This document shows positions 5,593 through 30,752 of a stretch of 33,577 nt of DNA, one piece after another. Numbering within the stretch: the stretch's first letter is position 1; each line of letters begins with the position of its first letter. The notes under the pieces were generated by a model, which worked only from the letters and a program-made list of their open reading frames with translations, ran no database searches and was not told where the DNA came from. The position numbers were made by a program, and so were the translations under genes. Location: NCBI GenBank assembly GCA_030625775.1, contig DAOUQC010000057.1:1-33577 (forward strand), read 5' to 3'. The stretch is from Verrucomicrobiota bacterium (GTDB lineage: Bacteria; Verrucomicrobiota; Verrucomicrobiia; Verrucomicrobiales; DEV007).

Positions 5593-6705
5593 GTGAAACT
5601 GCTGACCCCATCTCTCAATTGGCTGCTCATTTTTGTGCCTGCCGCCATTGTCTCGAAGTTCTTCTTTGAAGATGCCGCCACCTTCACCTTCATCACCTCC
5701 TGCCTGGCAATCATCCCGCTTGCGGGCTGGATGGGCAAGGCTACTGAACATCTGGCTGAAAGAACAGGCGACGGAATCGGAGGACTGCTCAATGCAACCT
5801 TCGGCAACGCCGCCGAATTGATCATCGCCATCGTCGCCCTGTCCAAGGGCATGACGGATATCGTCAAAGCATCGCTCACTGGATCGATCATCGGCAACAT
5901 CCTGCTCGTGCTCGGGGCATCGATGATCGCCGGTGGACTCAAACACTCCGAACAAAAATTCAACGCCACCGGCGCCCGCATGCAATCGACCCTGCTCACC
6001 CTTGCTGCCATCGGACTGGTTGCTCCCGCCGCCTTCCATCACTCGGTGGGCACCCAGGGACAACTGCAGGAATCCCATGTCAGTCTGGCGATAGCGATCA
6101 TCCTGCTCGTGACCTATGCGCTGGGTCTGTGGTTTTCCCTGCGCACCCACCGTCATCTTTTTTCCGGTCACGGGCACAGCACTGAAAACAACCTTGCCGG
6201 GGAAGTTGATCACCCCACTTCCTCCACCTGGCCTCTCAGTGTCGCCATCACCGTATTAGTCATTGCCACCACCTTCGTTGCCTGGATCAGTGAAATTCTC
6301 GTCGGCACCGTCGAACACGCTGCCGAAGCTTTTGGCATGAATGCCATTTTTGTCGGTGTCATCATCGTCGCCGTGATCGGCAACGCCGCCGAACACAGCA
6401 CCGCCATTTTGATGGCCTTGAAAAACCGTATGAATTTGAGTCTCGGCATTGCCATCGGAAGCAGCATTCAAGTGGCCCTTTTCATCGCCCCGGCACTGGT
6501 GATCCTCAGTTTTTTCATTGCCCCGGTTCCGATGGATCTCGTCTTCACCTTGCCCGAAGTAATCGCCGTCGTAGTCGCTGTCGCCATCACCAGTCAGATC
6601 TCCAGTGATGGACGCTCCAACTGGCTCGAAGGTGCTTTGTTACTTTCCGTTTATGCCATCTTTGCAGTGGTTTTTTACTATCTGCCGGAAACCCCACATC
6701 CCTAG
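5593..6705 (+). CDS. Calcium/proton antiporter (CAX type)
   Basis: The 370-residue polytopic membrane protein belongs to the Ca2+/cation antiporter superfamily, CAX branch, and should export Ca2+ in exchange for H+. Two inverted halves each carry the ion-binding signature: GNAAELIIAIVALSKG (E75) in the first and GNAAEHSTAILMALKNR (E267) in the second, followed by IAIGSSIQVALF. About eleven hydrophobic segments are visible. A loop rich in His (HRHLFSGHGHSTENN) lies between the halves. The start is GTG at 5593, 48 bases after the hydrolase stop, so it may belong to the same transcript. Length is near that of other bacterial CAX proteins. Confidence 0.92.
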   Translation: MKLLTPSLNWLLIFVPAAIVSKFFFEDAATFTFITSCLAIIPLAGWMGKATEHLAERTGDGIGGLLNATFGNAAELIIAIVALSKGMTDIVKASLTGSIIGNILLVLGASMIAGGLKHSEQKFNATGARMQSTLLTLAAIGLVAPAAFHHSVGTQGQLQESHVSLAIAIILLVTYALGLWFSLRTHRHLFSGHGHSTENNLAGEVDHPTSSTWPLSVAITVLVIATTFVAWISEILVGTVEHAAEAFGMNAIFVGVIIVAVIGNAAEHSTAILMALKNRMNLSLGIAIGSSIQVALFIAPALVILSFFIAPVPMDLVFTLPEVIAVVVAVAITSQISSDGRSNWLEGALLLSVYAIFAVVFYYLPETPHP

Positions 6706-6742
6706 GATGCCCGAGTGCTGATAGCAGCAAAAGTTTTCTCAA

Positions 6743-7771
6743 ATGAACACCCCGCCGCCCCGAACCCTATATTGGTGGCTGATACTACTGACGAGCAGCC
6801 TGCTGATCTCTACCAAAGCCACCGCTCAACCTTTCCCCAGGGTTCCGGTAGCAAACGGCGATCAAATTCTCTTCCTCGGAGACAGCATCACGCAGGCTGG
6901 TTTGTATTCCGCATTCATTCAAACCTGGTTGTGGGCAGAATACCCCGACTTGAAACTCGACATCATCAACCTCGGACTCAATGGCGAAACTGCCAGTGGC
7001 AACAGTGAAAAAGACCACCCTTACCCGCGCGCTCATATTCACGAACGCATCGGCCGGATTTTGCAAGCAACCAATCCTGATCTCGTCTTCATCTGCTACG
7101 GCATGAACGACGGCATCTATCATCCCTTTTCTGAACAGCGATTCTCCGACTACCAAAACGGCATCAAGCGACTGCTGGACAAACTCGAAAAACCCGGTCG
7201 GAAAATCGTAATCATGGGACCACCCCCCTTTGACCTGTTCACTTTCCGCCAACATCATCCCATCGCCCCTAAAGATGCTGACGAAAACTTCCCTTTCAGC
7301 TACAAAACTCCCGCCCGGGATTACGATCAGGTATTGGAAAAATACGGGCAATGGATCGTTGCGCAGAATAGCCGGAGCGCCGCCACCGTTGATCTTCACA
7401 CACCACTCACTCGACTCATTAAAAGCCGCCGGGCCACCAATCCCGATTACCTATTTGGTGATGGCATTCACCCGCCCGTAGAAGGACATCTGGAAATGGC
7501 GCTCACCATTCTCGACACCTTGGGAGCCGACCGGGAAAAGGCTGATTTGCAGCTCAAGCACCTGACCCGCATCAACACTTCCCAATCACCGTCCCCTCTA
7601 TGGCAGGTCATTCAAAAACGCCACCGCCTGCTCACCGTCGCCTGGATCGAAGAAGTCGGGCACATGAAACCCAACAAAGCCAAAACCCCTTCTCTACAAG
7701 AGGCTCAAAAACAAGCCGCCATCATGGAAGTGGATATTCGCCAAAAGCTGTCCGAAAGTAAGGGGAAATAA
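6743..7771 (+). CDS. Secreted SGNH/GDSL hydrolase
   Basis: The 342-residue protein has a signal peptide (residues 1-28, cleavage after ATA) and a complete SGNH set: nucleophile Ser48 in FLGDSIT, the block II glycine in NLGLNGETASG, block III in CYGMNDG (N122), and D240/H243 in DGIHPP. Enzymes of this class in Verrucomicrobia and Planctomycetes deacylate sugars, polysaccharides or lipids in the periplasm or outside the cell; the substrate is unknown. The C-terminal 80 residues form a helical tail rich in lysine and glutamine. It starts 37 bases after the antiporter stop. Adjacent genes do not indicate a polysaccharide locus. Confidence 0.88.
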   Translation: MNTPPPRTLYWWLILLTSSLLISTKATAQPFPRVPVANGDQILFLGDSITQAGLYSAFIQTWLWAEYPDLKLDIINLGLNGETASGNSEKDHPYPRAHIHERIGRILQATNPDLVFICYGMNDGIYHPFSEQRFSDYQNGIKRLLDKLEKPGRKIVIMGPPPFDLFTFRQHHPIAPKDADENFPFSYKTPARDYDQVLEKYGQWIVAQNSRSAATVDLHTPLTRLIKSRRATNPDYLFGDGIHPPVEGHLEMALTILDTLGADREKADLQLKHLTRINTSQSPSPLWQVIQKRHRLLTVAWIEEVGHMKPNKAKTPSLQEAQKQAAIMEVDIRQKLSESKGK

Positions 7772-7783
7772 AACGCTGAACCC

Positions 7784-8698
7784 ATGATCTCTCAAGTCCC
7801 CTTGTCACCCGACGGCCCAAGTGTCTCACAAATTGTTTTTGGCACCTGGCGACTGCTGGATGACGACAGCCGGCACACAAGCAAAGACACCATCGAGCGA
7901 CTCGAGCTCTGCCTCGAACTCGGCATCACCACCATCGACACCGCCGAAATCTACGGACTCTACACCGTGGAGTCCGCCATCGGCGCCGCTTTCAAAGAAC
8001 AGCCCGGACTGCGGGATCAATTTCAGCTCATCAGCAAATGTGGTATCGACGTGCCTTCTGATGAAAAAAAAGCGGCAGCTCTACCTCATTACAACGCATC
8101 TGCCAGCAACCTGATTCACTGCACCGAAAAATCCCTCCAGCTGCTGAATACCGATCACCTCGACCTTTTACTCGTCCACCGACCCGATTGGTTCGCCACT
8201 GCCGACGACACTGCCCGCGGCCTCAACCAGCTGATCTCCGAAGGTAAAATTCTTCATGCCGGAGTTTCCAATTATAGCCCGCGACAGTTCGATCTACTCA
8301 ACCAGCGGGTCGATCATAAGCTCGTCACCAACCAGATCGAATTCAGCTTGATGAGTCCCGGAGCGCTCGACGACGGGTCCCTGACTCAATGCGAGCAGCT
8401 CCGCATCCGCCCCATGGCCTGGTCACCTCTCGGAGGTGGTCGATTATTTGACAAGAATGACGAAGCCGGTCAACGCATTCGCAGTTGCATGGCTGGCATG
8501 CGCAGCAAATACAACGACGCAGCCGATGACGCTCTGGCCTTCGCCTGGGTTATGGCCCACCCTTCAGGTCCGCTTACTATTTTAGGAAGTAACCGTCCCG
8601 AGCGAATCCGCTCAACAGCTCAAGCCGCATCCATCAAATTAGATCGTCAGGACTGTTACTCACTGTGGCAAGCAGCTCACGGCCACCCCGTTCCTTGA
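7784..8698 (+). CDS. Aldo/keto reductase
   Basis: The 304-residue protein is an NAD(P)H-dependent (beta/alpha)8 barrel. All four catalytic positions are visible: D52 and Y57 in TIDTAEIYG, K85 in LISKCG and H132 in LLLVHRPDW. Near the C-terminus, ILGSNRPERIRSTA matches the cofactor-binding end of YdhF-like reductases, a cytoplasmic group with unclear physiological substrates. The start at 7784 lies 12 bases after the SGNH hydrolase stop, which suggests co-transcription. Confidence 0.9.
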   Translation: MISQVPLSPDGPSVSQIVFGTWRLLDDDSRHTSKDTIERLELCLELGITTIDTAEIYGLYTVESAIGAAFKEQPGLRDQFQLISKCGIDVPSDEKKAAALPHYNASASNLIHCTEKSLQLLNTDHLDLLLVHRPDWFATADDTARGLNQLISEGKILHAGVSNYSPRQFDLLNQRVDHKLVTNQIEFSLMSPGALDDGSLTQCEQLRIRPMAWSPLGGGRLFDKNDEAGQRIRSCMAGMRSKYNDAADDALAFAWVMAHPSGPLTILGSNRPERIRSTAQAASIKLDRQDCYSLWQAAHGHPVP

Positions 8699-8734
8699 AA
8701 TTTATCCTTCCTCTCACCAAAGCCCTCTTGAATC

Positions 8735-9967
8735 ATGAAGCACTCCTCAACAAGATTTGTCCTGACGACCTTACTAAGTGTCATTTTCCTGACAATCAAT
8801 GGGCAGGCAGCCCCCCCATCCAAAAAAGTGGAAACTTTAAAAGTCGGCAGCCCCGCCCCCGACTTCACTCTGCCTGGAGTGGATGGAAAAAACCATTCAC
8901 TCGCAGACTACACCAAGGCAGACGTTCTAGCCATACTGTTCACCAGTAATCACTGCCCTTCTGCCCAGGCCGTGGAAGGCCGGGTCAAAAAAATAGTCGA
9001 AGACTATCAGGACAAAAGTTTCCAACTCGTCGCCATTTCGCCCAACCATGCAGAATCCCTGAGACTCAACGAACTCGGCTACTCGGTTTACGGTGATACC
9101 CTGGAAGAAATGAAACATCACGCCGGTGAGCAAAAATTCAATTTCCCCTATCTCTTCGATGGCAAAACCCAAACCGTCGCCCGGGCCTACGGCGCACAAG
9201 CCACGCCTCACATTTTCATTTTTGACCGTGAGCGCAAATTGCAATACGTCGGCCGGATTGATGACTCCCGCTACGGCGACCCGGCATTGGTAAAATCCCA
9301 TGATGCCAAAAACGCCATCGATGCCCTGCTCGTTGGCAAAACTCCCCCTGTAAGCAAAACCCGCGCCCACGGATGCTCCACCAAATGGGCTCACAAACAG
9401 GATCTTGTCCGCCAATACAATGAAGAATTTGAAAAAAAGCCCGTCAGCCTCGAAGCCATCAATATCGCCGGGATAAAAAATCTTGTTGCCAACAAAACCG
9501 ACAAGTTGCGCCTGATCAACGTCTGGGCAACCTGGTGCCCTCCCTGTATCGCCGAGTTTCCCGAGCTTGTAAAAATCGGACGGCAATTTGAAACCCGGGG
9601 TTTTGATTTCATCTCCCTCAGTGTGGACGCCGAGGGAATGAAAAAGGAAGTTTTAGAATTTTTGACGAGCGAACATGCCGCCCTGCCTCGCCTGACGGAA
9701 AAATCCCTCACCAAGGAAGGCCGCAAAACTAACAATTACATCTACGCTGGCTACGATGCAGACGAACTGGCCGAAGCACTTGACCCTGAATGGGAAGGCC
9801 CTGTCCCTTACTCAATCCTGGTTGCCCCCGGAGGAAAAATCATCTTCCGCCAAGCCGGCGAGATCGATCCCATTGAATTGAGAACAGAGATTCTCAAACA
9901 CTTGGGCCGTTTTTATACCCCTCCTCCCGAGTCCAAACCTGCTGTCCCCTCGAAAAAAGCCCCCTAA
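8735..9967 (+). CDS. Exported two-domain redoxin/thioredoxin-like protein
   Basis: This 410-residue protein has an N-terminal signal peptide (to about residue 26) and two thioredoxin-fold domains. The first (about 36-180) is AhpC/TSA-like: VGSPAPDFTLPGVDGK, then FTSNHCPSAQ with a lone cysteine at C74 and ATPHIFIFD. The second (about 235-395) is TlpA/ResA-like with WATWCPPC (C268, C271), which should have disulfide activity. The C-terminal tail is proline rich. The likely site is the periplasm, where it may reduce or detoxify; partner proteins are not apparent nearby. The first domain has only one of the usual two cysteines in its motif, so it may act as a peroxidase or a binding module. Confidence 0.88.
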   Translation: MKHSSTRFVLTTLLSVIFLTINGQAAPPSKKVETLKVGSPAPDFTLPGVDGKNHSLADYTKADVLAILFTSNHCPSAQAVEGRVKKIVEDYQDKSFQLVAISPNHAESLRLNELGYSVYGDTLEEMKHHAGEQKFNFPYLFDGKTQTVARAYGAQATPHIFIFDRERKLQYVGRIDDSRYGDPALVKSHDAKNAIDALLVGKTPPVSKTRAHGCSTKWAHKQDLVRQYNEEFEKKPVSLEAINIAGIKNLVANKTDKLRLINVWATWCPPCIAEFPELVKIGRQFETRGFDFISLSVDAEGMKKEVLEFLTSEHAALPRLTEKSLTKEGRKTNNYIYAGYDADELAEALDPEWEGPVPYSILVAPGGKIIFRQAGEIDPIELRTEILKHLGRFYTPPPESKPAVPSKKAP

Positions 9968-10787: not shown

Positions 10788-11330
10788 ATGACCCCGGTGA
10801 ATAGTAGCGATGGAGACATACTCGTCAGTTGCTTCGACAACGTGGACTGGATCCGTGTTGAAGGTAAGGGGTCTTTCCAAAACAGCAGCAAGGTGAAAGA
10901 ATTTACCCGGCGCAGCTTTGAAAAAGGGCATCGCAACTTTGTCGTTGATCTGGAAAACTGCCCCGCCGTCGACTCGACCTTCATGGGCACCCTCGCATCA
11001 ATGGCACTGAAGCTCCGCTATGAACCCGATGGCCGGGTTGATGTCATCAATGCCACAGGACGTACCCGCGATGCCATGACGAGTCTCGGTCTGCACTGCC
11101 TGCTTGAAATGGACGATGACGGAAGCGCATGGAAAGATGAGCGTGAACTGGTCGCACAAAATCTTGGCAAACCACTGGCTTCTGGTCCCGACCTGAGTAA
11201 AAGAGAAAACACTGCCAATGTTCTGGCCGCCCACGAAGCCTTGGTGGAAGCTAATAATGATAATTTTTCTCGCTTCAAAGATGTGCTGGAGTATTTGAAA
11301 GATGATCTGAACGGTGATGAAAACTCATGA
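10788..11330 (+). CDS. STAS-domain protein (anti-sigma-antagonist-like)
   Basis: Residues 10-105 form a STAS domain: IRVEGKGSFQNSSKVKEF, NFVVDLENCPAVDSTFMG, and RVDVINATGRTRDAMTSLGL. The loop DSTFMG holds Ser63 at the position normally phosphorylated by an anti-sigma kinase in SpoIIAA/RsbV-type antagonists. A 75-residue acidic helical extension follows, which the classical antagonists lack. The next gene encodes a PP2C phosphatase of the RsbU type, the enzyme that would reactivate such a protein, so the two probably work as partner-switch components. No RsbW-like kinase gene is present in the window. Confidence 0.82.
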   Translation: MTPVNSSDGDILVSCFDNVDWIRVEGKGSFQNSSKVKEFTRRSFEKGHRNFVVDLENCPAVDSTFMGTLASMALKLRYEPDGRVDVINATGRTRDAMTSLGLHCLLEMDDDGSAWKDERELVAQNLGKPLASGPDLSKRENTANVLAAHEALVEANNDNFSRFKDVLEYLKDDLNGDENS

Positions 11331-11376
11331 CGAGCCTATTCTTAGCCCGTGCTCACTTTTTTGAGATCGATCAGTG

Positions 11377-12828
11377 ATGAACAGTCTCATTTACCTCACC
11401 ATCATCGCCATCCTTTCGGTGGCAGTTGTCATACTCTACCGGCGACTGAATAAAAAAATTGAACAGCTGTGCGGTGAAAAAGAAGCGATCGAAATCGAAG
11501 AACACCGCATGTTCGATTTTTTGCATGGACTTGGTGCGTCCCTGCAAGAAGACAGTTCCCCTCCCAACATGCACCGTTATATCGTCAACGGCGTCATTCA
11601 AGTGATCAAGGCTGATGCAGGCGTTCTCTACTTACTCGACCCGGCTGCCGGGCAATTGATCCCCGTCTGCCTCAGCAAACAATTGGCACCCGTCATCCCC
11701 TTGCCAAAGGAGTTGGTCGAAAAAGCCAGTAAAAATGCCAATTCGCTGCGAAGCTATCTGAATCTGGCCACAGCAAAAATGGATTCAGGACTGCTCGGCC
11801 AAACCCTTCGCGAAGAAAACCCTGTTTTTGCCCCGGCTTTGACCGAGCACCCGCTGTTCGAAGGCAGCTCTAATCCCTTTCAAGAAAATCTCGCTGTCAT
11901 GATGGCACCGCTTATCTACGGTGAAAAAAAAATCGGCGTCCTTGCTGTCACCAAACATCACTCCGAGCAATCAGACTCTCAAGGTTTCAGCCCCAATGAT
12001 GTCGATGTCTTTGCCTCCGTCGCCGAGCAAAGTTCTTTCGCTCTGGGCAGTGCCATCATTCACTCCGATGCCCACGAAAAACGCCAACTCGAACAGGAAT
12101 TGCGCAATGCCAGTGAAATCCAGCGCATCCTCCTGCCCCGCTCCTCTCCAGGGCTTGAAAACTACCATCTGGCAGCCACCTTCACCGCAGCAAAACTCGT
12201 CAGCGGCGACTACTATGATTATGTCCCCGTAGACGACCATCACTGCGGCGTAGTGATCGGTGATGTCTGTGGGAAAGGCATCCCTGCTTCGCTCATCATG
12301 GCGATGTGCCGCAGCGTGCTTAGAAGCAGGGCCGGCGGCCAATTTTCACCCGCCCTTGTCTTGCATGCGCTCAATCGTGTCATCTTCCCCGATATCCGTG
12401 AAGACATGTTCATCAGCCTGCTCTATCTCATTATCAAAGATGACAGCGACGAAGCCGTCATGGCACGTGCCGGACACGACCCTCCGCTGCTCTGCCATCA
12501 TGACCAAGGCGGGGAAATCGAAACCCTCAACCCCGCAGGTATGGCCGCGGGAATCGATATGGGGGATGTTTTTGACCGTATTGTACAAGACTATCACTTC
12601 ACCATGAAAACAGGTGACATCCTGCTGCTCTACACTGACGGAGTCACCGAAACCCTGAACCCTGATGGGGAAGAATTTGGCATCCAGGGCCTGTCTGAAG
12701 TACTCAAATCCTCTTATGAGGAGGGAGCCGATGCCGTTATTGAAAAAATCTCAGCGGCTTTGAAAGCATTCAGCGGCCATGACCAGCAAATCGACGACAT
12801 CACCTTGATTGCTGTCGAAAAGCGTTGA
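11377..12828 (+). CDS. Membrane GAF-PP2C (RsbU/SpoIIE-type) phosphatase
   Basis: From ATG at 11377 the protein has 483 residues (a GTG lies one codon earlier). A single N-terminal transmembrane helix (LIYLTIIAILSVAVVILY) is followed by a GAF domain (about 45-225, FLHGLGASLQEDSSPPNMHRYI to SFALGSA) and a C-terminal PPM/SpoIIE serine phosphatase. Metal-binding and fold motifs are visible: SGDYYDYVPV, GDVCGKGIPASL, ARAGHDPPLL, LLYTDGVTETLN and DDITLIAVEK. It should dephosphorylate the STAS protein encoded 46 bases upstream in response to a GAF-sensed or membrane signal. Its stop overlaps a TTG that opens the grpE frame, but grpE more likely starts at 12909. Confidence 0.9.
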   Translation: MNSLIYLTIIAILSVAVVILYRRLNKKIEQLCGEKEAIEIEEHRMFDFLHGLGASLQEDSSPPNMHRYIVNGVIQVIKADAGVLYLLDPAAGQLIPVCLSKQLAPVIPLPKELVEKASKNANSLRSYLNLATAKMDSGLLGQTLREENPVFAPALTEHPLFEGSSNPFQENLAVMMAPLIYGEKKIGVLAVTKHHSEQSDSQGFSPNDVDVFASVAEQSSFALGSAIIHSDAHEKRQLEQELRNASEIQRILLPRSSPGLENYHLAATFTAAKLVSGDYYDYVPVDDHHCGVVIGDVCGKGIPASLIMAMCRSVLRSRAGGQFSPALVLHALNRVIFPDIREDMFISLLYLIIKDDSDEAVMARAGHDPPLLCHHDQGGEIETLNPAGMAAGIDMGDVFDRIVQDYHFTMKTGDILLLYTDGVTETLNPDGEEFGIQGLSEVLKSSYEEGADAVIEKISAALKAFSGHDQQIDDITLIAVEKR

Positions 12829-12858
12829 ATAGTCCCGTCCCTTGGCTGGATACTGATG

Positions 12859-12872
12859 GAACCGAACGGTTC
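12859..12872. promoter_or_regulatory. Short palindrome upstream of grpE
   Basis: GAACCG and CGGTTC face each other across two bases, 36 bases before the grpE start. The spacing and position are those of a possible operator, but it does not match the CIRCE heat-shock element and no regulator gene is nearby. Confidence 0.25.
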
Positions 12873-12908
12873 AAGCCAGATAAAGATAATAACGTGTATA
12901 CGGATGCT

Positions 12909-13484
12909 ATGACTGACGATCCTAAAAAAAAGACCAATCCCGATGATGCGCCAGAAAATCTGGACATCGACGAAATATTGGAAGCTGCAGAAAATGCTCG
13001 GGAACAAAGCGATGCCGAAGTACCTGAGACTCAAGAAAACGAGGCCGAAAAGTGGCGCAATCTGGCTCATCGTAATCAAGCCGAGCTTGAAAATTTCCGC
13101 AAACGCATGGCACGCGACAAGATGGATGCGATTCAATACAGCAATCTCGGCCTACTTGAAGAACTGCTGCCTATTATTGATAATTTTGAAATGGGCCTGG
13201 TAGCTGCCAAGGATGTTTCCACAGAATCGATCATCTACCAGGGCATGAGCATGGTGCACAAACAAATGCAGAATTTTCTCACCGACCACGGAGTGGAAGC
13301 CATTGAAGCCACCAATCAAAAATTCGACCCCAACCTGCACGAAGCATTGGAACAACGCTTCAGCGATGAGGTTGCCGAAGGCGACGTCATCCAAACGACC
13401 CGCCAGGGATACAAATGTAAGGATCGTCTGCTGAGAGCTTCTAATGTAGTGGTCTCGAAAGGTTCCGATCCTGGGTCGGAATAA
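12909..13484 (+). CDS. grpE: GrpE nucleotide exchange factor
   Basis: From ATG at 12909 the protein has 191 residues. An acidic N-terminal stretch (DDAPENLDIDEILEAAENA) leads into the long dimerising helix with the family motif AELENFRKRMARDK. The beta-wing domain then reads FDPNLHEALEQRF, DVIQTTRQGYKCKDRLLRASNVVVSKG, matching the GrpE signature. It releases ADP from DnaK. The frame is open to a TTG at 12825, but those 28 residues are not GrpE-like. dnaJ follows after 25 bases; dnaK and hrcA are not in the window. Confidence 0.95.
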   Translation: MTDDPKKKTNPDDAPENLDIDEILEAAENAREQSDAEVPETQENEAEKWRNLAHRNQAELENFRKRMARDKMDAIQYSNLGLLEELLPIIDNFEMGLVAAKDVSTESIIYQGMSMVHKQMQNFLTDHGVEAIEATNQKFDPNLHEALEQRFSDEVAEGDVIQTTRQGYKCKDRLLRASNVVVSKGSDPGSE

Positions 13485-13509
13485 TTATTTTTAATCTTAA
13501 CTTTATACC

Positions 13510-14679
13510 ATGGCGACTATGGCCAAACGATGTTACTACGAAGTTCTCAGCGTCAGCCGGGAAGAAACCAAGGACGGAATCAAAAAATCCTACCGCAAGC
13601 TCGCGGTAAAATTCCATCCAGATAAAAATCCTGACGACGACACCGCCGAGGACAAGTTTAAAGAAATCGGTGAAGCTTACGAAGTGCTCAGCGATGAGCA
13701 AAAGCGGGCAGCCTACGACCGCTACGGACACGGCGCCTTCGGCAGCGGTGGCCCTTCTGCTGGCGGGGGCGGCGGAGCTGGTGGATTCCACGATCCCTTT
13801 GATATTTTCCGTGATGCCTTCGGCTCACAAGGAGGTGGCGGCAGTATCTTTGATGAAATTTTCGGGAATGCCGGAGGCCGCAGACGCCAAAAACAGGGTC
13901 TGAAACGTGCAGGTTCCGATCTGCGTTACGATCTGCAAATCAGCCTCGAAGAGGCCGCTTTTGGAATCGAAAAAGAACTCGAGCTCGAAAAAATGGGGCT
14001 CTGTGATAAATGCGAAGGTTCCGGTTCGACTAAGAGTGGGGAAGTCCGTTCCTGTGGCACTTGTGGCGGCGTCGGCCAGGTCGTTGCTTCCCGGGGATTT
14101 TTCCAGGTCCAGCAAGCTTGTCCCACTTGCCACGGTGCGGGCGAAATCATCGCTAACCCCTGCACCTCGTGCAGCGGCGAAGGCCGTATCCGCAAGACCA
14201 GTCGCATCAAGCTGAAAATCCCTGCCGGCATCAGTCAGGCTTCCCGCCTGCGTTCATCCGGCAATGGTGATGCGGGAATCTGCAAAGGCCCCTCGGGCGA
14301 TCTCTATGTTGTGATTCATCTGCGTGAGCATGAAGTCTTCGATCGGGAAGAAGATGACCTCTATTGCGAGATGCCCATCTCATTTGCCCACGCTACCCTT
14401 GGGGGTGAATTGGTCGTGCCAACCTTGGAAGGGAAAGCTTCGATTAAAATCTCTGCGGGCACTCAGACTGGCACAGTTTTCAGACTCAGAGCCAAAGGCA
14501 TGCCTATTCTGGGATCCAATAATAAAGGTGACTTGCTGGTCAATACACAAGTCGAGGTGCCCACCAAGCTGAACAAGGAGCAGAAGGAAAAGCTTCAGAC
14601 CTTTGCCGAAAGCATCGGTGAAGAAAACTCCCCCATCCACGAATCTTTCTTTGAAAAAGCCAAGAACTTTTTCAAATAG
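13510..14679 (+). CDS. dnaJ: Chaperone DnaJ
   Basis: This is a complete type I J-protein of 389 residues. The J domain (about 7-70) has the HPD motif at 36-38, followed by a glycine-rich segment ([15 protein letters not shown]) and a zinc-finger region with four C-x2-C-x-G-x-G units: CDKCEGSG (C165), CGTCGGVG (C182), CPTCHGAG (C204) and CTSCSGEG (C218). The substrate-binding C-terminal domain ends near [22 protein letters not shown] second ATG at 13519 gives [10 protein letters not shown], closer to other DnaJ starts. The usual aspartate before YYEVL is a cysteine here. It stimulates the ATPase of DnaK and delivers unfolded clients. Confidence 0.97.
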
Positions 14680-25309: not shown

Positions 25310-25723
25310 TCATCCTGCCACGAGCAATTTCACCCCTTCTTTTTCTGCAGCTCGATTCAAAGCTTTGTCACTGCTTGCCAGGGGCACTTTGTTGTCTATC
25401 GCCACTCTCAGATATTCCGCATCATAGGCCGAAAGCTGATGCTTGGTAGCCAACTGCTCTAAAATCTCCAGCGAAGCAATTGATAAACCAGCAGCTAAAC
25501 GTAATGGTAATTTGCGAATTTGCTCTAAAGCACTCAGACGAACAACACGGGTAATCTGCTTACGGCGCTCCATCACTAACAAAGTATTGGTGATTTCTAG
25601 CAACCACAAAGAGGGCACCAACATAACTTTTCCACTATCCAAACTATCGAGAACCTTTTCGGCATAAACATCCTGCTCATTCAAAAACCAGGCTGCCGCT
25701 ACTGAATTATCAACGACGATCAC
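25310..25723 (-). CDS. PIN-domain toxin (VapC-like ribonuclease)
   Basis: The 137-residue protein is a PIN-fold Mg2+-dependent ribonuclease. The four acidic residues are in place: D5 in VVDNSVAAAWFL, E43 in LWLLEITNTL, D101 in LSAYDAEYLRVA and D119 in LASSDKALNRAA. VapC-type toxins cut tRNA or rRNA until blocked by the antitoxin. Its start overlaps the stop of the upstream antitoxin gene by four bases, so the pair is coupled. The pair sits between the cyclase-like gene and the sensor kinase operon. Confidence 0.9.
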   Translation of the reverse strand: MIVVDNSVAAAWFLNEQDVYAEKVLDSLDSGKVMLVPSLWLLEITNTLLVMERRKQITRVVRLSALEQIRKLPLRLAAGLSIASLEILEQLATKHQLSAYDAEYLRVAIDNKVPLASSDKALNRAAEKEGVKLLVAG

Positions 25724-25998: not shown

Positions 25999-28395
25999 TC
26001 AAGATTTTAACACATCCTTCACCACTCGAATCAAATCCTGCGGCGGATAGGGTTTAGGCAGCACGGCGACAAAACCATACTCTTCTGGCTTCGCCATCGC
26101 GGGGGCATCGGAATAGCCACTTGATACGATCGCCCGCACTTTTGGATCGATCACCTGCAAGGACTCCATCATTTCAACACCGCCCACACCACCTTCAATC
26201 GTCAAGTCACTCAAGACCAAATCAAACGGCCGTCCAATCTCCATCGCCTCTTGATACAAACGAATCGTCTCCTTGCCTTCGATGCTTTCCACCACTTCAT
26301 AACCCTGTTTGCACAAACAGCGCACGATCAATTGACGGATCAAATGTTCGTCTTCCAGAATCAAAATGCGCGGTGCTCCCTCTCGAACAGGGCCGTTTTC
26401 CACATAAATTCCTGGCCGGACATCTACCAGTACCTCCTCTTCATCAAGCTCCACCCCGACTTTATCCGTGCTCAACTCCAAGGGCAAAAACAGATTCACT
26501 TGCGTGCCCCTGCCCGGCTCGGAGCTCAAGTCCAAATGCCCGCGGTGGGCTTTGGCAATCGATTCGCAAACTGTCAGCCCGATGCCACTGGCATTATCCT
26601 CTTTACGGGTGGTAAAATAAGGCTCAAACACTCTGGTGGAAATTGATTCATCCATACCGTGACCGCTGTCGATGATCTTTATCACCACATAGGATTCGGC
26701 TTTTTCATCACCACCCTCGTAATCCACAGCATCCAGCCATGCGTCCTCCATACTCAGCTCACACACCGCCTCCAAACGGCCTCCGTTCGGCATCGCTTCT
26801 TCAGCATTCTTGATCAGGTTTTCCAACAGCAGGGCAATTTGCTCAGGATCGATCCGCACCCTCAAAGAGGGATCCTCGCAAGTCATCTGGTAGCGAATCT
26901 TCGTATGGCTTTTACGGTGTTCCTCAAGCACCCTGCGCAGCACCCCCGCCACTTTGGTTTCCGTCAAAATGGGAACCCCGCCCTTGGTAAAAGTCATCAA
27001 CTGCTGCACCAGACGCCGCGCCTGGTCTGCCGCCAGCGAAGACGCCGTCACCTCACTCTGAAAACCCCTGTCATCGAGATAACGATCCTTAATCAGTGAA
27101 AGGTTTCCGATCAACACCGTCAACAGATTGTTAAAATCATGAGTGAACCCACGAGCCAATAAACTCAAGCCTTCCAAACGGTGAGCACGAAGTTCCAGTT
27201 GCGATTCCTGCTTGCGGGCCGTCGCATCCCGCAACAGAATCAGCCAGCCCTTGGCACGAGGGTACACATTCAGTTCGAACCAGCGCTCACTTTCCTCATC
27301 GTGAATTTCAAAACATTGCCGTCGGCCGCTTTCCCGGACCTCTTTCAATTTAGCCCCACATTGATCCCCTGCTGATTGCGAAAACAATTGGCGAAAGCCC
27401 TGCCCAATCAGTAAACCTTCACCATTACTCAAACAGGCACTGGCTTCCGGATTTGCATAACTTACAATCTCACCTTCATCAAGAGTCAATAAAGGATCCG
27501 TAATACCCTCAATCAAACGCGACGACCGCTCCCGTTCAACTCCCACTCGCTCACCCGGCCCAAGCTCCTCACGACTTTCACCCTCCGTGTATTCAAACAG
27601 CTCGCAAAACGGGACATAAGGGGCTTCTTCATCTGTCCCGCCCTCTGGATCGACCGCCAATCCTTCCTCCCATAGGCGAAACAAAGTCAGCAAACCTATC
27701 ACTTCTCCCTTTTCGTCTCTCAGGGGTGCGGATCGTTCTATGATTTTGATCTCATGACCTTCTGCTGCCGTCAAAATCAATACTCGCCCGGCCCCACCCT
27801 TCATCGACGACGATGCAGCTTCTGCTCCATGATCCCTGACATTCAACACCCGGGACAAAGCTTGCCCTATCACCTGCTCGGCCTTGCAAGCCGTCAGACT
27901 TTCGGCAGCTGAATTGAAAAACGTAATCCGCCCTTCTAGATCGGAGGCAATCACCGCCTCATTCAAGCCCTTCAGAGTATTTAAAAATCGATCACCTCGC
28001 TCTTCGAGATCACGCTGCAATTGATTGTGCTCAACCGCCCCCTCGACAGCTGCCTGCAGTTCCCAGGCACTGAAAGGCTTACGCAAAAATCCTGCCGGAT
28101 GCACCGCCCTGGCCCGGTTAAAACTCTCCTCATTGGAAAATCCCGTCATGAAAACCACCGGTGCTGCACACACTTCGCACAGGCGTTTGGCCGCTTCAAT
28201 TCCATCATCCCCTCTGCCAAGACGCAAATCCACCAACAACAAGTCAGGTTGGCGCCCGCGCAGCAATTCCAAAGCCCGTTCAACACTATCCGCCAAACCC
28301 AGCACGCCATAACCACGGCGAGCCAGAGTATCACTCAGATCACTACCGACGATGGCATCGCTCTCTAATATCAGGATCTGGAGTGCCTCACTCAT
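25999..28395 (-). CDS. Hybrid sensor histidine kinase with receivers at both ends
   Basis: The 798-residue cytoplasmic protein has, in order: a receiver (about 5-122; E11, D13, phospho-acceptor D56, K in LRKPF), a PAS domain (about 140-250), a second PAS (about 292-395), a HisKA region with FTHDFNNLL (H419), an HATPase with NAEEAMPNGG, IDSGHGMDESI and SGIGLTVCESIAKAHRG, and a C-terminal receiver (ILILEDE, DLVLSDLTIEGG, LPKPYP). All catalytic boxes appear intact. No membrane segment is seen. The gene follows the 778-residue PAS kinase by 20 bases and has AGGA upstream of its ATG, so the two form an operon. The input signal and output are unknown; no DNA-binding output domain is encoded. Confidence 0.92.
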   Translation of the reverse strand: MSEALQILILESDAIVGSDLSDTLARRGYGVLGLADSVERALELLRGRQPDLLLVDLRLGRGDDGIEAAKRLCEVCAAPVVFMTGFSNEESFNRARAVHPAGFLRKPFSAWELQAAVEGAVEHNQLQRDLEERGDRFLNTLKGLNEAVIASDLEGRITFFNSAAESLTACKAEQVIGQALSRVLNVRDHGAEAASSSMKGGAGRVLILTAAEGHEIKIIERSAPLRDEKGEVIGLLTLFRLWEEGLAVDPEGGTDEEAPYVPFCELFEYTEGESREELGPGERVGVERERSSRLIEGITDPLLTLDEGEIVSYANPEASACLSNGEGLLIGQGFRQLFSQSAGDQCGAKLKEVRESGRRQCFEIHDEESERWFELNVYPRAKGWLILLRDATARKQESQLELRAHRLEGLSLLARGFTHDFNNLLTVLIGNLSLIKDRYLDDRGFQSEVTASSLAADQARRLVQQLMTFTKGGVPILTETKVAGVLRRVLEEHRKSHTKIRYQMTCEDPSLRVRIDPEQIALLLENLIKNAEEAMPNGGRLEAVCELSMEDAWLDAVDYEGGDEKAESYVVIKIIDSGHGMDESISTRVFEPYFTTRKEDNASGIGLTVCESIAKAHRGHLDLSSEPGRGTQVNLFLPLELSTDKVGVELDEEEVLVDVRPGIYVENGPVREGAPRILILEDEHLIRQLIVRCLCKQGYEVVESIEGKETIRLYQEAMEIGRPFDLVLSDLTIEGGVGGVEMMESLQVIDPKVRAIVSSGYSDAPAMAKPEEYGFVAVLPKPYPPQDLIRVVKDVLKS

Positions 28396-28415: not shown

Positions 28416-30752
28416 TTACCTGAGCGGGAAACGAATTAAAAATTCTGTATTCTCCCCAGGTCTGATTTCCAAACGCCCTCCCAGTTGGGCCGCCAGACTT
28501 TTCACGACCCGAAAACCCAGGCTATCCACCCGGGCCAAATCGAAGCCGGACGGCAAACCCTCGCCGTTATCACCCACCAACAAAACCGCCTCACGCTCAC
28601 TGCGACGAAGCCGGACATACACCTGCCCCCCCGGCAGTTTCGCCAAACCATGCTCGATTGCGTTGCTGACCAACTCCGTCACGTACAGCCCCAATGCAAA
28701 AGCCTTGCGCACTGATAGCCCCAGGCTCACGCAGTCCACCTCCGCCTCGAGATCCAGCTCGGCAGCCAGAGGCGAACTCTGCAGCAGTTCTTCAATTAAA
28801 ACCTGCAAATATGCTGGCACTGACACCTGCATACTTCCCCCATTGATCGACTCCAGCCTTGCCTCCCGCAAACAGGCAACCGCCCGAATCCGGCCCTGGT
28901 GCTTTTGCAATACGCTGCGATGCTCCTTTTCTGTCCCCGCCGGCATAGCGTCAATTTCCAGATTCAACAAACTGGTCAGAGTCTGCAGTTGGTCAGACCA
29001 TTCACACGAGGCCAGGTCTTCATGTTCCTCATACCTGGTCAGGCCTTCTTGCTCCTCATTTTCCTCCGCTGCCAGAGATTCACCTTTCTGACAAATCACC
29101 GCCAGATATTTTCCCTGTCCACATCCCGCCACATGGGCACACGCCTGCTCTCCCCTCTCATCTGAAAATTTGAGTACCAAACCTTCATTGCAATGAAATT
29201 CCAACTCATTCAACCCCGCCCTCTCACAAGCTTGCCAGAATGCAGGTACCACCGCCTTTAAAAAGCTACCCTTTAAATTGGACAACTGCAGGCCAAATGC
29301 CCCCCCCCCATCAGCTGGACTCACATCCTCCACCTTGCCTGTGTGATCGAACAGCAAAACCAGATCAGGCACCGCCTCCAGCAAAGCCCGGTTTTGCAGC
29401 ATGCTTTCCTTCAATGCAGCTGCAGACGCCCCACCACCCTGTCCTCTATCCTCCCTTACCAAATAAGCTGTGAAAGGCCCGCCCGCTTCATCCATGAATG
29501 AAATCCCCAGAAACACCGACAGCATTTTCCCTCCATTTTTTCGCAAGCGCAAACGCAACTCCTCAGCCGCCAGTTGTGTTTCTTTCCTGGCCAGATCTTC
29601 AAACTCCCATTTATCGGCACAATCCTCCGCCAGGACAAAATCATCAAAGGCCATCGCCCGCAACTCAGTCGCCGTGTATTCCAGCATCTGCTGCAAAGCG
29701 GGGTTCACCGAACAAATCCTTCCTGTGCGATCAACCAAAGCCATGCCGACGCTTTTACTGCCAAACAGTGTCTTGAATTTCACATCACTCAATAACCACG
29801 CCTCTTCCGAGCGACAACGATCCGACACATCGCTCATCGTCAGCAACAGCCCCCCATCGCTCATCAACTTCGGACGGAACTCGATGTGCGCAAGCACTCC
29901 CGTGGCTGTACGCAAAACATAAGTACGCACCAATTGTTTCTGCCACACATGTTTGCGCCATGAAGCGATTATCTCCCGACAATGCTCCTCCCCCGGACAA
30001 ACCCTCCGTAACCAGGACTCCATGCAATCCGCCTCATCAATGCCGACACCCAACAGGTCGGCATGACGCGCATTACCATAAATAAATTTTTCATCCCGGC
30101 CCAATACCACCAGGCCATAGGGAACACTCTCCATCATTTCATACAACAAATCAGCCCCGGGCAAGTTACTCACCGCAATATTTTTACCCGCCATTTCACT
30201 CAACGCCTCGATTCGCCCAGGTGAAAGTTCGGCTGTGATTCCTTCCACGTCCCCTGACGAGCGTTGAGGAAAATTTTCCTCCTTGCCTCCCTCGTCATCC
30301 AACTCGAAGGGACTCACCAGTTCAAGGCTGGCTGGTGCTCCCTCCAGTTTCTCAAAGTGCGCGCCAATTTTCTCAAAACGATCACACAAATGATCAATCT
30401 CATCCGGCATCAGCAAAAACTCATCCCAGAGCAACCGATCAGGATGCTGCTGCCAATCGATTTCGGAACCGAAAGCAAGAGCGATCACATGGGGACTCGC
30501 ACAACCGGAAGGGGCTGCCGCTTGTTTGATCCAGGTCAAAAAATCCCGCATCTCATCCTTGATCGAGCGTACATCCACTACCACCAGCGATTCGCCCTCA
30601 TATTCATCCGGCCCGAACAAAGGCGAATCGCACTCATTCACCCCATAACCGCAACGCCGCAAAGTCTGGCACACCAGGCGCCTGACCTGCGCATCGCGAT
30701 TGATAACAAAAGCGCGCTTAATTGCCGTATGACCGTAACTCTGAGATACCAC
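28416..30752 (-). CDS. PAS-rich HisKA_2-type sensor kinase lacking the phospho-acceptor His
   Basis: The 778-residue protein begins with a receiver-like fold (AFVINRDAQVRRLVCQTLRRCGYGV, LVVVDVRS) that has lost the usual K and T positions. Three PAS-like domains follow (about 200-320, 325-445 and 455-560). The C-terminus is an HATPase of the HWE/HisKA_2 class: ELVSNAIEHGL, LVGDNGEGLPSGFD and SLGFRVVKSLAAQLGGRLEI. The DHp helix, ending LQTLTSLLNLEID with RIRAVACLREARLESI after it, matches HisKA_2 except that the H-H-R-V-K-N-N run is replaced by S-C-E-W-S-D-Q. It may be a pseudokinase or regulator of the hybrid kinase encoded next. The start is GTG at 30752; earlier starts are not apparent. Confidence 0.85.
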   Translation of the reverse strand: MVSQSYGHTAIKRAFVINRDAQVRRLVCQTLRRCGYGVNECDSPLFGPDEYEGESLVVVDVRSIKDEMRDFLTWIKQAAAPSGCASPHVIALAFGSEIDWQQHPDRLLWDEFLLMPDEIDHLCDRFEKIGAHFEKLEGAPASLELVSPFELDDEGGKEENFPQRSSGDVEGITAELSPGRIEALSEMAGKNIAVSNLPGADLLYEMMESVPYGLVVLGRDEKFIYGNARHADLLGVGIDEADCMESWLRRVCPGEEHCREIIASWRKHVWQKQLVRTYVLRTATGVLAHIEFRPKLMSDGGLLLTMSDVSDRCRSEEAWLLSDVKFKTLFGSKSVGMALVDRTGRICSVNPALQQMLEYTATELRAMAFDDFVLAEDCADKWEFEDLARKETQLAAEELRLRLRKNGGKMLSVFLGISFMDEAGGPFTAYLVREDRGQGGGASAAALKESMLQNRALLEAVPDLVLLFDHTGKVEDVSPADGGGAFGLQLSNLKGSFLKAVVPAFWQACERAGLNELEFHCNEGLVLKFSDERGEQACAHVAGCGQGKYLAVICQKGESLAAEENEEQEGLTRYEEHEDLASCEWSDQLQTLTSLLNLEIDAMPAGTEKEHRSVLQKHQGRIRAVACLREARLESINGGSMQVSVPAYLQVLIEELLQSSPLAAELDLEAEVDCVSLGLSVRKAFALGLYVTELVSNAIEHGLAKLPGGQVYVRLRRSEREAVLLVGDNGEGLPSGFDLARVDSLGFRVVKSLAAQLGGRLEIRPGENTEFLIRFPLR

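Follow-up and report, generated by a model that had tools for sequence, protein, structure and literature searches.

A HisKA_2-type protein without its phospho-acceptor histidine, encoded beside a CckA-like hybrid kinase in Verrucomicrobiales

Results

The Q1-Q2 gene pair

The window (the whole stretch of DNA analysed, 33,577 nucleotides of contig DAOUQC010000057.1 from a Verrucomicrobiota bacterium) contains two adjacent genes on the reverse strand, here called Q1 and Q2.

28416..30752 (-): Q1, putative 778-aa pseudo-histidine kinase, pseudoREC-PAS-PAS-PAS-HisKA_2-HATPase_c (ORF, Pfam, congeners)
25999..28395 (-): Q2, 798-aa partner hybrid kinase, REC-PAS-PAS-HisKA-HATPase-REC, with a CckA-like core (ORF, Pfam, NCBIfam)

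Q1 starts with GTG and is followed downstream on the same strand by Q2, with a spacing of exactly 20 nt. The identity of Q1 to its counterparts in two congeneric species was 66-69%. No description of a Verrucomicrobiales Q1-Q2 pair was found in the literature; a promoter and terminator scan gave signals no better than those of shuffled sequences, and a plasmid search returned generic partial matches only, mostly at about 25% coverage. A PIN-domain-like ORF was noticed by eye downstream of Q2, at 25310-25723 (-).

The domains of Q1 were located as follows.

30378..30719 (-): N-terminal receiver-like domain (pseudo-receiver) without a full active site (alignment with relatives)
29787..30140 (-): PAS1, residues 205-322 (Pfam and relatives)
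29433..29786 (-): PAS2, residues 323-440 (Pfam)
29088..29399 (-): third PAS-like domain, about residues 452-555 (Pfam PAS_4 in three stretches, predicted strands)
28842..29057 (-): DHp helices, residues 566-637 (helices 127-163 and 169-198 of an AlphaFold2 fragment; HisKA_2)
28989..29009 (-): replaced H-box, S582-C-E-W-S-D-Q588 (alignment; C583 is TGT, 29004-29006)
28419..28820 (-): CA domain (HATPase_c), with the N-box at 28647-28679, G1 at 28551-28571 and G2 at 28503-28523

The N-terminal domain had no Response_reg match in Pfam. PAS1 is the hallmark domain, common to the canonical, His-less and CA-less versions of the protein described below. HATPase_c scored 41 bits, and the N-box (N697), G1 (DNGEGLP, 728-734) and G2 (SLGFRVV, 744-750) are all present, in line with an earlier note on this DNA, which had described the three boxes as retained. 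The same note had assigned the protein to the HWE/HisKA_2 type. Q1 passes the curated cut-off of HisKA_2 (PF07568; 23.4 vs 22.3 bits; 24.3 bits for a congener). There was no match to HWE_HK (PF07536) at E up to 1; the canonical relatives also fell below its cut-off.

Q2 had been described as a complete hybrid kinase with receivers at both ends, and its active-site residues bear this out.

28042..28377 (-): N-terminal receiver, D56 codon 28228-28230, PhyR/FATGUY-like, PVVFMTGF
27139..27141 (-): phospho-acceptor H419, RGFTHDFNNLL
26476..26850 (-): HATPase domain, with N, G1 and G2 intact
26020..26367 (-): C-terminal receiver, D730 codon 26206-26208, VSSGYS motif

The Pfam HisKA match of Q2 was sub-threshold. 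The nearest NCBIfam models of its kinase and C-receiver were those of CckA (NF046020/NF046026; 183 and 170 bits vs a cut-off of 1000), and the model nearest to its N-receiver was of the PhyR family, with a score far below the equivalog cut-off. Every complete Q2 that was read has the kinase histidine, the CA boxes and the motifs of the C-receiver, with small changes only; g18, for example, has HGFNN in place of HDFNN. In one genome (G024, locus L156), the partner hybrid is made up of two overlapping ORFs, 6366-7295 and 7255-8964, probably owing to a frameshift or assembly error.

Loss of the acceptor histidine

The alignment of Q1 with about 40 relatives placed C583 in the acceptor column, with S582-C-E-W-S-D-Q588 standing for H-H-R-V-K-N-N. 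HRxxN is the signature of the family (PMC5898713), and its H, R and N are changed in Q1, so that the three species of the genus read CExxD or GExxD; the window has CEWSDQ and its congeners GEWADQ and CEWADQ, which gives C, G and C as acceptor residues (3/3 species). The flanking W, Q, L and Q agree with relatives such as QHRWRNQLQ. Compared with this g10 motif, H, R, R and N are replaced while W, Q, L and Q are kept, which suggests that it is the catalytic positions that were altered. In addition, the HisKA_2 match in Q1 begins at profile position 10, directly past the H-box, whereas those of canonical relatives begin at position 1-2. Thus the claims of the earlier note that the histidine is replaced, and that the DHp helix fits the family after the active-site run, were both upheld.

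The two objections that the note had raised against itself were also examined. H577 of EEHEDLA, considered as a shifted acceptor, was ruled out, because it lies six residues upstream of the acceptor column and the two congeners do not share it. Homologues with a normal motif would have pointed to an assembly error or an isolated mutation, and both were ruled out, since the histidine is absent in three separate genomes. The loss is therefore genuine and common to all three species of the genus.

A different residue could in principle have taken over, with Cys583 or a nearby Ser, Asp or Glu being phosphorylated and Q1 acting as an unusual kinase. C583 does lie at the acceptor position, in the middle of DHp helix 1 (residue 144 of the model, within helix 127-163; AlphaFold2), and E584 and D587 are close by and conserved in the genus. 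However, G056 has glycine at this position, which rules out cysteine as a selected acceptor, and the position is taken by S, G, Q or R in other His-less relatives, so no residue type is selected. We consider an alternative acceptor very improbable.

Conservation and structure of the DHp-CA region

Comparison of the window with its congeners gave Q1 identities of 86% and 76% for the CA domain and 76% and 79% for the DHp, vs 57-62% for PAS3 and 44% for the linker. Omega for the CA domain was 0.07-0.12 (Nei-Gojobori), an approximate value as dS was 1 or more and near saturation. The exact state of the window is carried by three species only, and the partner of two of these is truncated at contig ends.

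The AlphaFold2 model of the Q1 fragment was of middling confidence (mean pLDDT 76). EL346 was both the closest solved structure to this model (Z 18.6 over 172 residues, vs Z 13.6 over 128 for DivL) and the best PDB match by sequence. A Foldseek search also matched plant phytochrome kinase-like domains, which differ from Q1 in having no operon partner and a different sensor. The output domain of plant phytochromes serves something other than His phosphorylation.

The intact and constrained CA domain could also suit a kinase acting in trans, phosphorylating a histidine on another protein in a mixed complex; the co-encoded Q2 offers an available one, H419. Q2 nevertheless has its own intact CA domain, and the dimerisation domains of HisKA_2 and HisKA differ, which makes a mixed four-helix bundle unlikely. 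On balance, such a role appears quite unlikely.

Four states of Q1 across the order

Regions around Q1 relatives were gathered within the family and the order. The tree was built on 84 pairs from two families, and in these the gene immediately upstream of the Q2-like hybrid is Q1; the pairing, for which the earlier note had proposed a check in homologous operons, is conserved across much of the order. There was no Q2 adjacent to the Q1 relative in f3 and in a number of f4 genomes.

The 84 pairs were assigned to four states by our own motif rule. Canonical proteins, with histidine and intact CA domain, made up 25/84 (f4, g13, g4). The histidine was lost and the CA domain intact in 12/84 (g1, g7, g12, g14, g16, g17 and four f4). 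The opposite state, with the histidine kept and the CA boxes lost or altered, was found in 30/84 (g2, g8, g10, g15, g11), and both were lost in the other 17/84 (g3, with D-to-N in G1; g6; g18, with DHp-CA deleted; G020/G027). The phospho-acceptor is kept and the nucleotide boxes of the CA domain are lost in proteins of g2, g8, g10 and f3. For one g2 protein, the CA-like region is still predicted to be folded, with pLDDT mostly above 90.

Several individual cases were recorded. Among the otherwise canonical f4, loci L133, L137, L187 and L143 are without the acceptor and have an intact CA domain (H to R in G111/G090/G173, H to Q in G077). In g18 (L048, L050, L051), Q1 stops after the PAS domains, DHp and CA are absent, and the gene still precedes Q2. 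The f3 relatives (L103-L109) are His-retaining and CA-degenerate (LHRARNDLQ), with the partner elsewhere or absent. A second pair type was seen in the same family (L062-L066, L070, L071), where a HisKA_2-type kinase of 471-517 aa with an intact HHRVKNN adjoins another hybrid with N- and C-terminal receivers.

Trees built from Q2 without its N-receiver and from PAS1-2 of Q1 both set the His-less groups apart. AU tests rejected one clade for all His-less, CA-bearing lines tested (p 8e-14), g1 with g7 and the g12 group as a clade (p 3e-45), and g7 with the g12 group and f4 as a clade (p 2e-5). A single origin of all His-less forms is thereby ruled out, and these rejections require that histidine loss with an intact CA domain arose at least three independent times, the loss in the window genus being its own. 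The joining of g7 with the g12-g3-g6 clade had support 0. The Q2 tree joins the window to the CA-degenerate clade (99% SH-aLRT, long branch), so neighbouring lineages appear to have dropped opposite halves of Q1; the Q1 tree did not resolve this grouping.

Those relatives that have neither half left (g18, part of g6, G020/G027) could be the end point of a decay in which Q1 has lost its function and its CA domain has merely not yet eroded. Relatives of the same operon partner do have DHp-CA fully eroded or deleted, and in g3 and g6 the loss of the histidine goes with loss of the G1 aspartate. In the window genus, however, the CA domain ranks first or second among the domains in conservation, with omega about 0.1, and all nucleotide motifs are kept at 66-69% overall identity. 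This conservation of CA and DHp argues against decay of Q1, which we judge unlikely.

The N-receiver of Q2 and the state of Q1

The N-receiver motif is PVVFMTGF in the window Q2 and PxxFxTGY in g2/g8/g10. HWE/HisKA_2 kinases pass phosphate to FATGUY receivers (PMC5964349), whose motif has been discussed for intermediates of CckA-type phosphorelays (PMC9981736). Taken with this literature, the FATGUY-like motif of Q2 supports a putative ancestral link from Q1 to the N-receiver.

The D or K of the N-receiver is lost together with a dead Q1 histidine in g18, G020/G027, five g6, four f4 genomes (G111/G090/G173/G077) and g7 (K). The receiver is intact in g1, g3, g12, g14, g16 and g17, as it is in the window, and it is degenerate though the Q1 histidine is kept in the G009 clade, G069 and G195 (receiver Asp lost). 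The trend between Q1 histidine and N-receiver was in the expected direction but not significant in a tree-aware sign test (4-5 independent pairs, median p 0.5).

These data bear on the idea that the DHp-CA of Q1 might read the phosphorylation state of the Q2 N-receiver, in the way that DivL reads DivK, and feed back on Q2. The receiver tends to be dead where the Q1 DHp is dead or deleted, it is intact in the window, and DivK co-occurs with the DivL DHp-CA in alphaproteobacteria (PMC4211667). Against this, the sign test is low in power, the receiver Asp is missing in the G009 clade, G069 and G195 although their Q1 histidine is present, and g3/g12 have the receiver but no Q1 histidine. Such receiver sensing, a narrower form of the allosteric role preferred below, is possible but somewhat doubtful.

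Phosphorelay parts elsewhere in the genome

The window genome contains 21 HATPase and 23 receiver matches, and Q1 is its one detectable HisKA_2. No Hpt domain was detected in this genome, nor any match to a ChpT-type HPTransfase at E 0.001. Hpt was also absent in four CA-degenerate genomes sampled (G003, G006, G058, G062), which is consistent with the Q1 DHp serving as a phosphotransfer node in CA-degenerate genomes.

Discussion

One close parallel is DivL of Caulobacter, which, like Q1, has PAS repeats and a DHp-CA with the acceptor histidine replaced and the other boxes kept, and whose partner is a CckA-type hybrid (PMC4211667, PMC5361649). By sequence Q2 is CckA-like: its kinase core and C-receiver are most similar to CckA, and it carries the receiver motif xSGY, as has been described for CckA (PMC9981736). 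It differs in its score below the cut-off, in an extra N-terminal receiver resembling those of PhyR/FATGUY proteins, and in a genome without a ChpT-type match. Q1 in turn differs from DivL in being encoded directly upstream of its hybrid, and in having C or G at the acceptor of a HisKA_2 DHp, where DivL has Tyr in a HisKA-type DHp.

With moderate confidence, we favour the reading that Q1 is a pseudo-histidine kinase acting as a DivL-like allosteric regulator of the adjacent Q2. The ancestor of Q1 would have been an active HisKA_2 kinase in the same operon, probably one passing phosphoryl groups to and from the Q2 N-receiver. With the change of HRxxN to CExxD or GExxD in the genus, autophosphorylation, phosphotransfer and probably phosphatase chemistry would have been lost at the site, while the sensory PAS domains, DHp dimer and ATP-binding CA domain have stayed under purifying selection. 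A signal sensed by the PAS domains would shift the conformation of the ATP-loaded DHp-CA, and Q1, docked on Q2 probably at the N-receiver and/or the PAS-DHp region, would set the kinase/phosphatase balance of the hybrid, as DivL does for CckA. We infer ATP binding, DHp dimerisation and PAS sensing by Q1, its direct contact with Q2 and the direction of regulation. The suggestion of the earlier note that a His-less kinase may bind ATP and modulate its partner is partly supported by these findings and plausible, the loss in the window being one among several outcomes reached in parallel by this operon family. DivL itself has no autokinase activity and only weak ATP binding, and its CA domain, with the boxes kept, is dispensable (PMC4211667); the intact CA motifs of Q1 thus do not prove an ATP-dependent role.

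His-less members of the HWE/HisKA_2 kinases are already known, as a subgroup of EL346-like LOV-HKs without the phosphoacceptor has been noted (PMC10359499). Those are alphaproteobacterial LOV kinases, whereas Q1 carries three PAS domains and is encoded together with a hybrid. The new elements are the CckA-like partner encoded next to Q1, the recurrence of the loss, and the finding that related clades show the opposite loss. The PhyT, ChpT and Spo0B phosphotransferases keep the histidine and have a degenerate CA domain (PMC5898713); the sister clades of Q1 resemble ChpT/PhyT in this respect, and Q1 of the window is the reverse, with CA kept and histidine lost. PhyK was the best histidine-kinase NCBIfam match of Q1 (NF051872), but at 42.7 vs 750 bits, and Q1 is without HRxxN.

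Tentatively, one Verrucomicrobiales gene family, located beside a CckA-like hybrid with a PhyR-type receiver, may have independently produced both a DivL-like His-less regulator (several times, the window genus included) and a ChpT/PhyT-like CA-less phosphotransferase, so that alphaproteobacterial CckA control would have been replayed convergently, starting from one ancestral kinase. This points to repeated evolution of the DivL and ChpT solutions outside Alphaproteobacteria. The canonical, His-less, CA-less and doubly reduced versions of one operon partner form a natural series around an unchanging hybrid core, which makes testable what a paired ex-kinase contributes and whether ATP binding alone carries signal.

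Elsewhere in the window, at 10788-14679 (+), translations indicated that grpE and dnaJ are directly preceded by two ORFs, one STAS-domain-like and one for a GAF+SpoIIE/PP2C-like phosphatase, so that partner-switch parts abut chaperone genes.
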